DNA of 64,000 nucleotides from Limnohabitans sp. Jir61. GTDB lineage: Bacteria > Pseudomonadota > Gammaproteobacteria > Burkholderiales > Burkholderiaceae_C. The position numbers and the translations under genes are program-made. The notes beneath the pieces are model-generated. The model made no database searches, had not been told where the DNA came from, and worked only from the letters and a program-made list of their open reading frames with translations. This document shows, one piece after another, positions 57,805 through 64,000 of this stretch. Within the stretch, counting starts at the first letter, position 1; every line of letters begins with the position of its first letter. The stretch lies in contig NZ_NESD01000002.1 in the NCBI RefSeq assembly GCF_003063545.1, positions 124,001 through 188,000 of the forward strand. Reading direction: 5' to 3'.

Positions 57805-57881
57805 TGGTGCGGCTGGCAGGAATCGAACCCACGACCCCTTGGTTCGTAGCCAAGTACTCTATCCAGCTGAGCTACAGCCGC
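57805..57881 (-). tRNA. tRNA-Arg(ACG)
   Basis: GCGGCTGTAGCTCAGCTGGATAGAGTACTTGGCTACGAACCAAGGGGTCGTGGGTTCGATTCCTGCCAGCCGCACCA. Confidence 0.97.
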
Positions 57882-57998
57882 TCTGGAAAACCGAAAGTAT
57901 ATCACAGATATTTGCTAGTACCAGACGGTACTTTGGCCAAAGAATTTTGGTCCGCAAAGTTTTATGACTGGTTGGGCTATGTCTGGACTTTGCAAATA

Positions 57999-59090
57999 TC
58001 AGTCAGCAAACGGGTAATCCGTATAGCCTTTTTCAGCGCCACCATAGAAGGTCGCTCTATCGTATGGGGTCAATGGCAAGTCGTGCTCAAAGCGCTTTGG
58101 TAAATCTGGATTGGAAATAAAAATGCGACCAAAGGCAACTGCATCCGCTTCTGCGTGCTCAACAGCTGCGGTTGCGTTGTCTTTGTTAAAACCTCCAGCC
58201 AAAACGACTTTACCTTTGAATAATTTTCTAAACAGCTTGCCAGTACTGGGGGCATCTTCGGCAATTTGATCGTTTCCTCCAGCTGAAGTTGCACGCGGCT
58301 CAATCAAATGCAAATATGAAAGATTCAATGGATTGAGCTTTTCAATCAAGTAAGAGAACAACTTGATCGGATCAGAATCTTTCATGTCATTGAATTCACC
58401 ATAGGGCGAAAGACGGATGCCCACTCTGCCGCTACCCCAAACTGGAATGATGTCATTCAAAATCTCAAGCACCAATTTGCATCTGTTCTCAATCGAGCCG
58501 CCATAGGCATCCGTGCGTTGGTTGCTACCATCTTGCAAAAATTGATCAAGCAAGTAACCATTCGCAGCATGCAGCTCAACTCCATCAAAACCTGCCAACT
58601 TCGCTTGTGTCGCGGCGTGGACATACGACTTTTTGAGCGCCTCTATCTCTGAAAGTGAAATCTCTCTTGGAGTTTCATAGTCTTCCAAAGCCCACGAAGC
58701 CATATAGACCTTACCAGTTGGCTTGATTGCAGATGGCGCCCCAGGCAATCCATCCTTGGGATGATGCGATGAATGTGAAATACGTCCCACATGCCATAAC
58801 TGAAGAAAAATGACGCCACCTGCAGCGTGTACTGAGTCAGTGATTTTTTTCCAAGCATCACGTTGCGCATCGCTATAGATACCAGGCGTCGCTGGATAGC
58901 CTTTGCCGTGCTCGGAGATTTGGCTTGCCTCTGTGATGATCAAACCTGCAGAGGCCCGTTGCGAGTAATACTGTGCAGCCAACTCACCAGGGACACCATC
59001 ATTTCCAGCGCGCATGCGGGTAAGCGGGGCCATAAAGATGCGATTTTTTACCTTGACATCACCAAAGGTTTCTGAGGTCATCAACGACAT
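57999..59090 (-). CDS. Old Yellow Enzyme-family alkene reductase (NemA-like)
   Basis: 363 aa; NRIFMAPLTRMRAG, GFDGVELHAANGYLLDQFLQDGSNQRTDAYGGSIENR. Confidence 0.92.
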   Translation of the reverse strand: MSLMTSETFGDVKVKNRIFMAPLTRMRAGNDGVPGELAAQYYSQRASAGLIITEASQISEHGKGYPATPGIYSDAQRDAWKKITDSVHAAGGVIFLQLWHVGRISHSSHHPKDGLPGAPSAIKPTGKVYMASWALEDYETPREISLSEIEALKKSYVHAATQAKLAGFDGVELHAANGYLLDQFLQDGSNQRTDAYGGSIENRCKLVLEILNDIIPVWGSGRVGIRLSPYGEFNDMKDSDPIKLFSYLIEKLNPLNLSYLHLIEPRATSAGGNDQIAEDAPSTGKLFRKLFKGKVVLAGGFNKDNATAAVEHAEADAVAFGRIFISNPDLPKRFEHDLPLTPYDRATFYGGAEKGYTDYPFAD

Positions 59091-59163: not shown

Positions 59164-59198
59164 AAAAAAGCTCTTGTCATTTCTGACAAGAGCTTTTC
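59164..59198 (-). terminator. Terminator just downstream of the interrupted tRNA
   Basis: aaaaaagctcttgtcatttctgacaagagctttt, located 5 nt past the CCA end. Confidence 0.85.
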
Positions 59199-59203
59199 AT
59201 AGT

Positions 59204-59243
59204 TGGTAGGGCGTGACAGACTTGAACTGTCGACCAAAGGATT
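59204..59243 (-). tRNA. tRNA 3' half-exon (anticodon-loop end through CCA), probably a CAU-anticodon tRNA; 5' half not adjacent
   Basis: Minus-strand AATCCTTTGGTCGACAGTTCAAGTCTGTCACGCCCTACCA: T-arm GACAG-TTCAAGT-CTGTC, acceptor 3' strand ACGCCCT, A73, CCA. No matching AGGGCGT acceptor 5' strand or D-arm found upstream in the nearby sequence. Confidence 0.85.
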
Positions 59244-59443
59244 CAGGTTTGTGTAGCTTTCACTACTCCCTGGACTATGCCTTCACCATGGCTTGCGCTT
59301 TAGGTGGACGCCGTCTAGTCTCTACACGTTCAAAGTGCTTTCGCACTTAGCTTCGCTCGGCATTGGCATATCTTGCGACTTAGCTTTCACCGAATTTGAC
59401 GTCATTCACACGAGCAGTTTCCCAATCTCGGTGCACAAATTTT
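59244..59443 (-). ncRNA. Group I self-splicing intron (Azoarcus tRNA-Ile intron-like, about 200 nt)
   Basis: Minus-strand core: AAATTCGGTGAAAGCTAAG (P), ATGCCGAGCGAAGCTAAG (Q), GTGTAGAGACTAGACGGCGTCCACC (R), GGTGAAGGCATAGTCCAGGGAGTAGTGAAAGCTACACAAACCTG (S/P9). P7 GACTA/TAGTC, P3 GACGTC/GGCGTC, P9 GTAGT-GAAA-GCTAC. IGS GTG pairs with CAT of the 5' exon (U.G wobble at the splice site); last intron base is G. Confidence 0.93.
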
Positions 59444-59452
59444 ATGAGACGA
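59444..59452 (-). other. Residual 5'-exon tip (CTCAT) and inferred core/island junction
   Basis: Minus-strand ...TTAGTTAATCGTCTCAT|intron: CTCAT matches an anticodon-loop 5' side, but the upstream bases (ATCGT) do not pair with the TCCTT anticodon-stem 3' strand. Confidence 0.65.
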
Positions 59453-59503
59453 TTAACTAAAAATAAACCTAGTGTTTATGCGGCTTAGCGGGCTATTTGC
59501 AAG

Positions 59504-59527
59504 ACTGTAGAAGCAACTGTAGAAGTA
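59504..59527. repeat. Tandem 12-bp repeat near the island end
   Basis: actgtagaagca|actgtagaagta (11/12 identical). Confidence 0.8.
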
Positions 59528-59687
59528 AGTAGCATTTTACGTAAAACTAGCACTGCTAAAGAACAGCTATCTTGAGTGACTATTTTAGCTATACAAGACA
59601 CGTCATGGATACATGTTTACGCAATGCATAGCGTCAGTTCATCAACATTGCTCTTTTGAATCGTTTGACTGGATTTCAGCGTTAGCT

Positions 59688-59846
59688 TCATGCAGGTTGC
59701 GTAGACATCTTTGTTAAGCGTTGCTGCGTCTGCTGCAACCTTAACCGCAACGCCGCTTCCTTAGCTCGTTTTTGTGCAGCCTTTGCTTGCTGTTTTATTG
59801 CATCTACATGCTGCTGCCCAACATCCACAAACTCAAATGCTCTCAT
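59688..59846 (-). CDS. Small coiled-coil-like protein (52 aa)
   Basis: MRAFEFVDVGQQHVDAIKQQAKAAQKRAKEAALRLRLQQTQQRLTKMSTQPA; Shine-Dalgarno-like GAGAGG 8 nt upstream. Below the ORF-track size limit. Confidence 0.55.
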   Translation of the reverse strand: MRAFEFVDVGQQHVDAIKQQAKAAQKRAKEAALRLRLQQTQQRLTKMSTQPA

Positions 59847-59861
59847 TTCAGTACCTCTCTA

Positions 59862-59903
59862 AAAAAGTATTTATGGGTGTGCTGGCGCTTGGCAAACACA
59901 CCC
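59862..59903 (-). terminator. Terminator-like hairpin after the 59910-60347 gene
   Basis: Minus-strand GGGTGTG...CACACCC followed by ataaatactttttt. Confidence 0.6.
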
Positions 59904-59909
59904 TTTCGC

Positions 59910-60347
59910 TTACTTTAGAAAGCCACTCCGCAGCTGACCTGAAACAGCTTCAATCTGGCTGTCTAACTCACCCGCGAGTACTGCTACGTTTACCGCTTCC
60001 AAAGCTTCAATAAGCGCATCAGGATTAGCAACTTCAATAGCAGTCTTGCCTTTTGCAAGTTCAATAACCTTTGCGCCGTAACGGATAGCAATACAGCACT
60101 TGCCATTTTCTGCAACAAACCACCAAGGCTTAATGCGCTTAGGCACTGTTACAACAACACGCTCACCGCCTGTATTTGTAACTGTCTTGTTTTTAGTTGG
60201 CGCATAACTTTCGCCGCGGCTTTGTGCATGTGCCAGCTGGATTTGTTCGAACACCTTACTGCTTAGCTTATTGCGGCGCTGCACAACAGGTGACTGATTT
60301 GTAGGTTTTTTAGCTGCTACAAGCTTTAACGATGCAAGTGTTGCCAT
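59910..60347 (-). CDS. Hypothetical island protein (145 aa)
   Basis: MATLASLKLVAAKKPTNQSPVVQRRNKLSSKVFEQIQLAHAQSRGESY...; strong SD AAGGAG before the ATG at 60347. Confidence 0.75.
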   Translation of the reverse strand: MATLASLKLVAAKKPTNQSPVVQRRNKLSSKVFEQIQLAHAQSRGESYAPTKNKTVTNTGGERVVVTVPKRIKPWWFVAENGKCCIAIRYGAKVIELAKGKTAIEVANPDALIEALEAVNVAVLAGELDSQIEAVSGQLRSGFLK

Positions 60348-60453
60348 AGTCTTTCTCCTTTTTTTAACTGGGCAACACAACTTTATTTTCGGTGCTTGTA
60401 AATGGACAACCCCTATCTAGCCTTTGAACAGAAAAGAACCAGTCTTTTCACAA

Positions 60454-60477
60454 ATAAATATCAGTGCAGATAAATAT
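60454..60477. repeat. Direct repeat ATAAATAT x2 (16-bp period), overlapping the rep-like gene start
   Basis: ataaatat-cagtgcag-ataaatat. Confidence 0.7.
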
Positions 60478-60481
60478 TTGC

Positions 60482-61006
60482 ATGAACAAGCGAGAACTAA
60501 TAAAGGCACAGCAGCAGCTTTACGGACAGTTTGCAAGTCATTGCACATACGGAATGACACTTCAAACAACTTTAAGAACACGTAATGCAAACGCAACAAA
60601 AATGACCGAACTGGTCAGCATTGCAAACGATGTAATGTGCGACTTTAGAAAAAAACTTAACTGGCTACTTACAGGCAACGGACACAAACGAAATCCCAAA
60701 TACCTTCCTATTCTTATCGTTTCACTCGAAGGCACTACAAATACATACGACCACAATCGAACGCTTCACTATCACATTGCATTCGGAAACATTGATACAA
60801 AAAGGCTAGACGTAGATTTCCTAGAAAAACTCTCAAAACTTTGGATAGAAACAGGCATAGGCACAGACGATATAAAAATCCACCCCCTAACAAGTGGTCG
60901 CGAACACGGTTGGGGTACTTACATTAGCAAAGAGGCATGGAAAGGCAACATGGACTGCATAGATTTAGAAAATACACAAATACCAAAACACTTGCTGGCA
61001 AGTTGA
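60482..61006 (+). CDS. Small HUH/Rep-like candidate (rolling-circle replication-associated fold)
   Basis: LHYHIAFGN (His-x-His core) followed by WGTYISKEAW (Tyr-x-x-Lys-Glu) about 60 aa later, the order seen in HUH Rep proteins. Track start is 60464 (GTG). Confidence 0.6.
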   Translation: MNKRELIKAQQQLYGQFASHCTYGMTLQTTLRTRNANATKMTELVSIANDVMCDFRKKLNWLLTGNGHKRNPKYLPILIVSLEGTTNTYDHNRTLHYHIAFGNIDTKRLDVDFLEKLSKLWIETGIGTDDIKIHPLTSGREHGWGTYISKEAWKGNMDCIDLENTQIPKHLLAS

Positions 61007-61148
61007 CCAAGCGTTACTTGTCTTAAGGCTTTTGTCTAGGTTACTAGCAGATGGCTAGTTATATGAGCACGACTATGAAACCGACACATTCAACAAAGAC
61101 ACAGCAAGAAACATAGAGCTACACATTGAGACTTAGACAGGAGACGAG

Positions 61149-62366
61149 CTACTTGACTTTAGTTAACTTTGAGTTGGCACGTTGTTTTTCAAAACGCTTT
61201 GCTTCAGCAGCGTCTTTCTTTGCGCGAGCATCTTCCTTCTTCTTCTTTGCTACCGCTTTTTCTTCGTTCTTGCGCACCTTCTCTTGATACGCAACAATCC
61301 CTTTTTTGATATTTCCAGAAACAGCAAAGTCTTTATCAGCAAACCAACCTGAAACCTTCTTGTCTTTTGCGGTATCGCCGACCCATTTCAGGACATAGTT
61401 TTCGATAGCAGTCGTTGATGGCACATGACAATAAAGCTCCAGTTGGTCCATAGTTCCGCTTCGAGCAAGGACAAGGCCATACTCTCCGAAGATGTCATTT
61501 TTAAAGCTAGCCGTTTGACCACTACTCAACTGAACTACAAATGGTTTGAGTTTGCCTAGAGCTTGTATGGAAGCGTATTCTTCGGATTGCTTTACGTACT
61601 TCGGAACAAGTTTCCCAGCATCAGCAGCGATTACTGTCGCATATGCCTTTCGTATCTTTTCCATTCCGCCAAGTTCGGTTATGAAGCTCTCAAAGTCAGC
61701 TTGCAAGACGTCATAGCTATCGGCAATAAGAAAGGTCCGAGAGTAAAGGTGAAAAGTTTTTTCGGATACCCCTTTAAACACCATTTTTAACAGCAGTGTG
61801 GGTCGCGGTAAGTCATCGTGCGTTTTGATTTTGAAAACATTCCATAAAGCACTTCGCATCTTTTCGAATGTTTCTTCAGCGAACTCACATTTATTAATAG
61901 ACCTATAGACGCCGTAGGCTTCGCTAAGGTGCTTCATTTGCAATCTTCGACTCGCTAGCTCAACACGATTGACCTCATGTCTAAGCTTTTCCAGTGCAGC
62001 AAGTTGCTCTAATATTTCAGCTGTTTCATGCAGTTTTTGCTGTGTATAGCTGCTTTCGAAAGAAATATGCGGGTACTTGGCAACTAGCTCTTTAAGGGTA
62101 ACTATTGGCTTGCCCTGTTTCTTTCTTAGCGTCAAATACGCCTTGTCAGCTTCCTTAATCGCAATGGCCTTATCCTTTTTTGCTTTTGCTTCAGCAGCCA
62201 ATCGTTTCGGTGTATTTTCATACCCAGACTTTTTGCTCTTAAATAACGTCTCGCGAGATGGCGGTTTTCTGATTGCCTTTACAGCTTCAGGGTAGGCATC
62301 AAGAAATGCATCAACCTCAGCCCATATTTGTTTGTCGGTCGGCATTTTGAACTTAGCAGTAGCCAT
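61149..62366 (-). CDS. 405-aa protein of unknown function, immediately downstream of hsdR
   Basis: Long ORF with SD (AAGGGA), Lys/Ala-rich N- and C-terminal coiled-coil segments flanking a non-repetitive core; 42 nt from the hsdR stop, same strand. Confidence 0.75.
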   Translation of the reverse strand: MATAKFKMPTDKQIWAEVDAFLDAYPEAVKAIRKPPSRETLFKSKKSGYENTPKRLAAEAKAKKDKAIAIKEADKAYLTLRKKQGKPIVTLKELVAKYPHISFESSYTQQKLHETAEILEQLAALEKLRHEVNRVELASRRLQMKHLSEAYGVYRSINKCEFAEETFEKMRSALWNVFKIKTHDDLPRPTLLLKMVFKGVSEKTFHLYSRTFLIADSYDVLQADFESFITELGGMEKIRKAYATVIAADAGKLVPKYVKQSEEYASIQALGKLKPFVVQLSSGQTASFKNDIFGEYGLVLARSGTMDQLELYCHVPSTTAIENYVLKWVGDTAKDKKVSGWFADKDFAVSGNIKKGIVAYQEKVRKNEEKAVAKKKKEDARAKKDAAEAKRFEKQRANSKLTKVK

Positions 62367-62408
62367 ATTTCCCTTGATTTCAGTTTGTTACTTCAAGTAA
62401 TAAACAGC

Positions 62409-64000
62409 CTACACAGACTGTGCCCAATCTTCACCCAGCGCCTGAACTTGCTGCAAGACTAGTTCGACAGCGGCATCTTGTTGGTCGGGTGGGTACTTGT
62501 ACTTGCGCAGAATACGCCTAACCATCAATCGTAGGCTTGCACGAACACTTTCACGCTCAGACCAGTCAACCTTTAAGTTTTGACGCAGATTCTCTGTTAG
62601 CTCATGCGCAATCTTCTTCAAAATCTCATCGTTCAGTTCGCGAACAGCAGATTCGTTGTTTGCAAGTGCGTCATAAAACTTAACTTCATCATCAGTCAGT
62701 CCAAGTTGTTCACCGCGTCCGCTAGCTTCGCGGAACTTTTTAGCCATCTCGATAAGCTCTTCCATGACTTGCGCTGTTTCGATTGCACGGTTTTGGTAAC
62801 GCTGAATGACGCTGGTTAACAAGTCGCTGAACTTCTTTTCTTGCACAACGTTACTTTTGAAGCGACTTTTGATTTCGCCGTGAAGCAAGCGTTCAAGCAG
62901 CTCAACTGCCAAGTTACGCTCAGGTAGGTTTCGTACTTGAGCTAAGAACTCATCATCAAGTAGCCCAATGTTTGGTTTCTCAAGGCCAACAGCATCAAAG
63001 ATATCTACAACGCTATCGGAAACAACTGCTGAGCTAATGATTTGACGGATAGCTAGGTCACGTTGCTCGTCTGTCTTGCGCTGCGCCGTTAAATCACGCT
63101 TAGTCAGCAACACCTTGATGCCTTGCATGAACGCCACTTCTTCGCGTACTTGTTTCGCTTCATCCAATGTGCAGCAAAGGGTAAATGCCTTGCTCATAGC
63201 TACTGCCGTGTCAGCAAAGCGTTTCTTGCCATCCTTAACGCCTAGGACATGGTTGGCTGCACCTGCAAGTGCTTTGTGACCAGCAGTCATAAAGTTGCTG
63301 TAGTCGAAGCCATGCAGCATTCCACGAAGAATATCGAGCTTCTCAGCTAGTACGCTGTAGGCCTCTTGTGCATCGACTTTGATTTGTCCACGGCCTTTGC
63401 TGCCTGTGTACTCTTTCATGGCAGCTTTAAGCTCGTTACCAATGCCGATGTAGTCAACTACTAAGCCGCCCTGCTTGTCCTTAAACACGCGATTAACACG
63501 CGCAATCGCTTGCATTAGGTTATGGCCTTTCATGGGCTTGTCGACGTACAGCGTATGCACGCAGGGAGCGTCAAAGCCTGTTAGCCACATGTCCCTAACA
63601 ATAACCAGCTTCAGCTCATCGTTGGGGTCTTTAAATCGTTTCTCAAGACGCTTCTTAGTCTTGCCATCGTAAATGTGCGGTCGAAGCAAGGCTTTATCAC
63701 TTGCGCTGCCAGTCATCACAACTTTGATTGCGCCTTTTTCGGGGTCTTCGCTGTGCCAATCAGGACGTAGTTTGACAATCTCGTTATACAAGTGGACGCA
63801 GATTTCACGGCTCATAGCAACAACCATTGCCTTACCAGCCATTGCCTTATTACGTTCTTCAAAGTGCAGCACTAAGTCAGCAGCAACTTGGGCAACACGT
63901 GGCGCTGCACCGACTACCTTTTCAAGTGCAGCCCACTTAGACTTCAGCTTTGCCTGTGCGCCTTCTTCTTCATCTTCTGCCAGCTCATCAACTTCAGCGT
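62409..64000 (-). CDS. hsdR: Type I restriction endonuclease subunit R, C-terminal part (N-terminus beyond window)
   Basis: SF2 helicase C-terminal motifs ([56 protein letters not shown]) and HsdR C-terminal helical region. Frame remains open to 64000 upstream of the track start. Confidence 0.93.

Follow-up and report, generated by a model that had tools for sequence, protein, structure and literature searches.

Among the described relatives of the DNA studied here is the group I intron of the Azoarcus BH72 tRNA-Ile(CAU) gene, an IC3 intron inserted after U36, with a compact core, a GUG guide and a terminal G. In a hypothesis attributed to Randau and Soell in 2008, tRNA introns are said to block integration. 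In canonical tRNA genomic islands a tyrosine integrase splits a tRNA gene, and the displaced fragment marks the far end of the island (Islander, PMC4383910). In the tRNA-dependent lysogeny of actinobacteriophages (Guerrero-Bustamante and Hatfull, 2024, PMC10865867), integration does not reconstruct the target gene and a carried tRNA complements its loss; tRNA-Ile2-CAT is among the targets, the spread of this mode outside actinophages was called unknown by the authors, and a Sinorhizobium study (PMC11476347) cites it for a similar tRNA substitution. For a tRNA-Thr gene of Caldiarchaeum the intron-protection idea has been discussed, and an element-supplied intron was proposed to prevent further invasion (PMC3293823). 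Here we analyzed a stretch of 64,000 nt of the Limnohabitans sp. Jir61 genome (contig NZ_NESD01000002.1, positions 124,001 to 188,000; hereafter the window), in which a group I intron and the 3′ half of a tRNA-Ile(CAU) gene stand at the end of an integrative island.

At a probability of about 0.86, we read this locus as the product of a family of islands that split tRNA-Ile(CAU) and carry a replacement for it, the window holding a second-generation event on an older island, P, caused by two tandem islands, X and Y. As in tRNA-dependent lysogeny, a short core lies inside the tRNA gene, the gene is left unreconstructed and a replacement tRNA is carried. In contrast to that system, X and Y do not qualify as temperate phages but are Burkholderiales islands with restriction-modification cargo, the replacement tRNAs are mostly interrupted by introns, whereas PMC10865867 describes no tRNA introns, and tandem islands break each other's replacement tRNA. 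A tyrosine integrase, a split tRNA and a far-end fragment are shared with the Islander type; however, the X and Y junctions do not regenerate the target gene, and a whole second gene is carried. The archaeal proposals likewise concern an intron at an attachment site, but deal with protein-spliced introns at one locus, whereas here bacterial ribozymes, many islands, exact attachment (att) cores and a clear exception are found. A literature search on introns, integrative elements and the anticodon loop, covering mainly open-access articles and few preprints, found no paper describing intron-bearing replacement tRNAs.

The sequence-only reading of the window had recognized a group I intron core on the minus strand followed, after the universal G, by a tRNA 3′ half with CCA and its own terminator, and this description was borne out. 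Rfam RF00028 spans 59464-59251 of the minus strand end to end, with 59 bits against a gathering score of 50 and an E-value of 4.4e-13; the intron starts after CTCAT (59448-59444), its last base is the G at 59244, and the exon that follows reads AATCC...CCCTACCA (59243-59204), with a hairpin terminator next. The guide GTG lies 7 nt after CAT, as had been noted, and the splice-site geometry agrees with it, the U of CAU before the 5′ splice site pairing with the G of the internal guide sequence GUG and the terminal G preceding AATCC. For helices P3, P4, P6, P7, P8 and P9, including the P3/P7 pseudoknot, 99.1% of cells are paired, compared to 28-44% in slid controls, and an alignment of 19 related tRNA-Ile introns has a compensatory change in 18 of the 37 pairs, two of them in P3, one in P7 and others including P8 and P9. 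The covariance-model match is therefore significant, P7 and P3 are unbroken among the homologs, and the base-pair-preserving changes claimed for P3 are supported. In P3 the window intron shows A-U and C-G where G-C and U-A are found in most of the X- and Z-type island copies. Judged by its sequence, the intron would be self-splicing; it shares with that of Azoarcus BH72 the gene, the insertion place, the compact core, the guide and the terminal G, but it belongs to a mobile replacement gene, and the window copy is orphaned from its 5′ exon. The identity of the gene as tRNA-Ile(CAU) is also supported. The same T-stem as in the window 3′ half occurs in island X, G190, L047 and L050 (G, L and C being our handles for genomes, loci and contigs), unlike in most naive genes of the genus. 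What had been overlooked is that the intron lacks a tRNA 5′ half in front of it: the CTCAT standing there is the attachment core of an island, and the working intron-bearing tRNA gene that had been implied is not in the window.

The genome contains three group I introns, all on contig C2 and on one strand, at 183 kb (the window), 195 kb (copy 2) and 215 kb (copy 3). In copy 3, which is a full tRNA-Ile(CAU), the intron follows U36. Copy 2, also a full tRNA, differs in its exons, and its intron, of another type, interrupts the gene between U33 and C34, where G938 carries a related intron; both copies are intact and outside the window. A broken 5′ half (GGACTCATAA and, past the break, TCTATT; 5′ half A) lies 187 bp upstream of copy 3, measured between 5′ ends, and is thus on the same contig as the window intron and 3′ half, at a distance of 31.9 kb, with islands X and Y between. 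Joined to the window 3′ half, it gives a complete tRNA with the CAT anticodon in ARAGORN. Beyond the copies described, no tRNA-Ile(CAU) was found in this genome, and searches of this genome, G185, G190, G261, G431 and G442 found no uninterrupted one. The assembly is a draft of 8 contigs; that many independently assembled genomes show the same arrangement speaks against an artefact.

Islands X (C2:195.64-215.33 kb, about 20 kb) and Y (C2:183442-195639, 12.2 kb) are related, and both end exactly in CTCATAA, the 7 bp of anticodon-loop positions 32-38. Y is also present in G442, a bacterium of another family, with island ends 98-99% identical between the hosts; the first C and the last A of CTCATAA are the exact limits of the similarity, and the sequences beyond are unrelated, so that the core corresponds to the seven anticodon-loop bases and the right end of Y can be set at 59442-59448. 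Both carry a large tyrosine recombinase downstream of the tRNA, with 39% identity between the two, and in addition a small recombinase, a DUF6641 protein, a protein of 180-203 aa and restriction-modification genes; the integrase, the small recombinase and the DUF6641 gene are common to the islands of the family. No phage structural genes were recognized among the X and Y open reading frames (ORFs). We discarded a phage origin, as the integrase has no relative in IMG/VR or INPHARED and plasmids yielded only 22-30% identity; a DNA search of phages and plasmids with the intron alone gave short partial matches only.

The older history of the locus emerges from the relatives. In naive loci of the same genus (G081, G832, G837) hrcA is followed by one intronless tRNA-Ile(CAU), AATATCTGTG, and tRNA-Arg. 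G261 and G814 have a broken host 5′ half (CTCATAAACAATTT), followed at 197 bp by an intact tRNA-Ile(CAU) that carries the intron of the window, which is P in its intact form; in G261 an orphan host 3′ half stands directly before tRNA-Arg. The window intron, 3′ half and downstream sequence are 96% identical over 257 bp to the intact G261 gene, and 5′ half A resembles the G261 replacement gene in its promoter region, at 94% identity over 70 bp. Since both parts match this gene, the most likely reading of the window fragment is the rear half of a replacement tRNA that came with the older island and was split by X and/or Y. The old-yellow-enzyme (OYE)-like gene between the window half and the host flank is absent from the naive loci, where tRNA-Ile abuts tRNA-Arg, and is probably leftover cargo of P; next to tRNA-Arg, a probable decayed host 3′ half (AATTCTTTGG...TACTAGCAAATATCTGTG, compared to AATCCTTTGG...CCCTACCAAATATCTGTG in naive loci) was read by eye and shows moderate similarity. 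It is improbable that the intron belonged instead to the host's own tRNA-Ile(CAU) and that X and Y split an intron-bearing host gene, even though such host genes are known in the family and, within the genus, in G823: the promoter of 5′ half A is of the type of the second, replacement gene of G261 and not of the hrcA-linked host type, the T-stem is of the element type, and the OYE-like gene and the decayed second 3′ half separate the window half from tRNA-Arg. This had been our first idea, and it was abandoned because in G261 and G814 this intron turned out to sit in a replacement gene, next to a host 5′ half that is broken.

We propose that in islands of freshwater Burkholderiales a tyrosine integrase recombines at the CTCATAA anticodon loop of tRNA-Ile(CAU); integration would cut an essential, apparently single-copy gene without rebuilding it, and the island would bring a whole substitute near its left end, usually with an anticodon-loop group I intron, so that AUA decoding would come to depend on an island-borne, self-splicing tRNA. 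The older island P would have placed its intron-bearing substitute beside the host gene, and X and Y would later have entered this substitute at the border of exon 1 and intron, where the CTCATAA core is intact because the P intron begins with AA. The intron and 3′ half would thereby have been stranded 31.9 kb from the 5′ half, X and Y bringing copies 3 and 2, respectively, as substitutes. The island ends, the replacement genes, the intact relatives of P, the naive locus and the lack of another tRNA-Ile(CAU) can be read directly in the sequences; splicing in vivo, expression, recombination, the identity of the recombining integrase and essentiality we infer from them. That the carried tRNA is required for survival is suggested by the absence of another tRNA-Ile(CAU).

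Several points weigh against this proposal. The integrase beside each tRNA is a candidate for acting on CTCATAA, and expression, splicing and excision are predicted from sequence. After intron removal, copies 2 and 3 and the P and Z tRNAs fold as CAT tRNAs in ARAGORN, which labels them Met because lysidine is invisible to it; their Ile identity is suggested by the tRNA sequence and by the known Azoarcus relatives. The insertion of P into this genome is a reconstruction from relatives, since no original host 5′ half was located there and the host 3′ half has decayed. Finally, no integrase was recognized among the longer ORFs of P in G261, and P is presumed to be mobile.

The combination of a broken 5′ half, a full replacement tRNA and an integrase recurs in Limnohabitans sp. 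B9-3, a Burkholderiales metagenome-assembled genome (MAG), Polynucleobacter sp. MWH-Loch1C5, G344, G580, G639 and many genomes of the genus of G431 (probably Polynucleobacter). At the far end, an orphan 3′ half was recognized in B9-3, a Comamonadaceae MAG, MWH-Loch1C5 and G344, and the full set, including the orphan host 3′ half, in L046, L052 and G344; L. parvus II-B4, which like B9-3 has an X-type island, carries two such replacement tRNAs in tandem. The integrase was detected in 5 of 401 genomes of the family, 14 of 399 of the order and 43 of 186 of the genus of G431, three counts made with different E-value limits. In the intron tree, the island-borne introns fall on one side of a branch (90/87); one row counted as host, G265, may come from a decayed island.

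More distant relatives of the integrase behave canonically and rebuild the tRNA (L049, L051, L064, L069), at tRNA-Ile, tRNA-Met and tRNA-Lys genes. It could be argued on this basis that X and Y are ordinary tRNA-targeting islands restoring the gene by a 3′ fragment, with the introns and extra tRNAs incidental. We give this almost no credence: in X, Y, L046, L052, L063, G431 and G442 the break in the 5′ half falls within a few nt of the core, and a complete tRNA gene that has an upstream region of its own lies a few hundred bp away; the X and Y junctions, read directly, already refute it unless the assembly is wrong. Azoarcus-type ribozymes can act on CAU in trans, and the window intron has an intact core and guide with CAU as substrate, yet it is extremely improbable that 5′ half A and the window intron and 3′ half form a split gene, transcribed apart and trans-spliced, as two complete intron-bearing copies in the genome make this unnecessary and site-specific integration, with identical ends in another host, explains the arrangement fully.

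Beside the distant relatives, tandem partial tRNA-Ile 5′ fragments (GGGCCGTTAGCTCAGTTGGAAGAGG...) precede the island-rebuilt tRNA of G468 (L069:600-1300), and in G780 (L073, C1 about 437 kb) a tRNA-Lys(CTT) 5′ half is broken (GGACTCTTAA, then AAACG) next to a related integrase; in the stretch examined, no replacement tRNA was seen beside it. In G265 (L059:4181) a decayed tRNA-Ile 3′ half lies 1.5 kb after an intron-bearing tRNA-Ile, possibly an old integration of the canonical kind in which the intron arrived with the 3′ fragment.

An anticodon-loop intron was found in about 25 of 30 replacement tRNAs and in one of 16 host genes or host orphans; in Fisher tests 24/29 against 1/16 gave p 6e-7 and, by lineage, 5/8 against 1/16 gave p 0.007, figures that are indicative only, since the tallies were made by hand, lineage members are non-independent and samples were picked by integrase and pattern. 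The introns of X (CTCATAT), Z (CTCATAG or CTCATGG) and Y (CTTAAAA) break the core; the naive site reads GGACTCATAATCC and that of P CTCATAAAA. The stem pair is flipped, CGA-CTCATAA-TCG, in four intronless replacements, which fall into two kinds, and in one more, that of G911, the site is intact. That nearly all replacement tRNAs lack an intact target site suggests protection from integrases. We tentatively consider, at somewhat less than even odds, that the intron is an immunity device that interrupts the CTCATAA core and/or its right arm and so blocks the island's own and sister integrases; with the same reserve, intronless islands may reach this end by the flipped stem pair beside the loop, CGA/TCG for GGA/TCC. 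Protection would not be absolute, because the window gene itself was split. Complete protection was rejected: the P intron starts with AA and keeps CTCATAA, its gene is split, and the intronless G911 replacement has an intact site. A further point against full protection is that in G442 island Y split the apparent replacement gene of another island.

The features of the window are collected in the table. The 180-aa protein with the HYH motif had no Pfam or PHROG match and is possibly a rolling-circle replication initiator or a relaxase; it is fast-diverging, at 180-203 aa among the islands (also L005:10677-11288).

Table. Positions of the island, intron, tRNA and neighboring features in the window.
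Feature	Position	Strand	Basis
attR core CTCATAA, right end of island Y; CTCAT in place of 5′ exon	59442-59448	-	Y in this genome compared to G442
Group I intron, 200 nt, P-type, orphaned from tRNA 5′ half	59244-59443	-	RF00028, identity to G261, covariation
tRNA-Ile(CAU) 3′ half, CCA encoded, element-type T-stem GACAG/CTGTC	59204-59243	-	Sequence, ARAGORN
Terminator, hairpin and T-run, after tRNA half	59165-59203	-	Sequence
Old-yellow-enzyme-like gene, between orphan tRNA half and host flank	57999-59090	-	OYE by sequence reading
Probable decayed 3′ half of original host tRNA-Ile(CAU), beside host flank	57913-57946	-	By eye
tRNA-Arg(ACG), host gene, the next one after tRNA-Ile in naive genomes	57805-57881	-	
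Right part of island Y, rest beyond window	59442-64000	.	Y comparison
DUF6641 protein, core gene of the island family	59910-60380	-	PF20346 E 8e-17; homologs in related islands
180-aa protein, HYH (HUH-like) motif	60464-61006	+	Motif in sequence; homologs in other islands
HsdR, type I restriction, cargo of Y, continues past window	62409-64000	-	PADLOC REase_I, 1153 bits

Other observations concern Y and the introns at large. The restriction-modification middle of Y (C2:184.4-192.7 kb) is only 85-91% identical to that of G442 or unalignable, pointing to cassette exchange inside the island. In G442, Y is followed by an island W (L080/L081, C4 about 89.6-89.3 kb), whose replacement tRNA intron (CTCAT followed by AGCGTAAG) breaks off in P5 at an apparent insertion sequence, which leaves the tRNA-Ile(CAU) of Y as the only one seen intact in that genome. 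Other members of the family also have group I introns, in tRNA-Leu and in a further tRNA gene (L018, L034, L035); the 3′ end of the tRNA-Leu type, GTGGTAAG, resembles the intron of copy 2 and suggests jumps between tRNAs. In two genomes of the same genus as the window genome, another tRNA gene, at 3-11 kb from the intron-bearing tRNA-Ile, contains a group I intron as well (L057, G021 C1:899488-899696; L058, G233 C18:4807-5030). In G000 (C1:1288628-1291717, L040-L042), three motifs resembling the anticodon loop (CTCATAAYC) lie within 3 kb of one another, close to the end of contig C1 and outside tRNA genes.

With no uninterrupted tRNA-Ile(CAU) and with substitutes carried by islands, AUA decoding would depend on an island-borne tRNA, and the cell appears to depend on a mobile, self-splicing tRNA. 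The locus thus points to a route by which an essential tRNA comes to rely on a ribozyme carried by mobile DNA, and indicates a way for bacterial tRNA introns to spread, carried within complete replacement tRNA genes on islands. It would extend tRNA-dependent integration from actinophages to the defence islands of abundant freshwater bacteria. The unproven intron-protection idea gains a bacterial, testable system that offers defined cores, integrases, variants with and without introns, and one failure that was observed; if it is true, a self-splicing ribozyme would have been selected as DNA-level protection of a tRNA gene.
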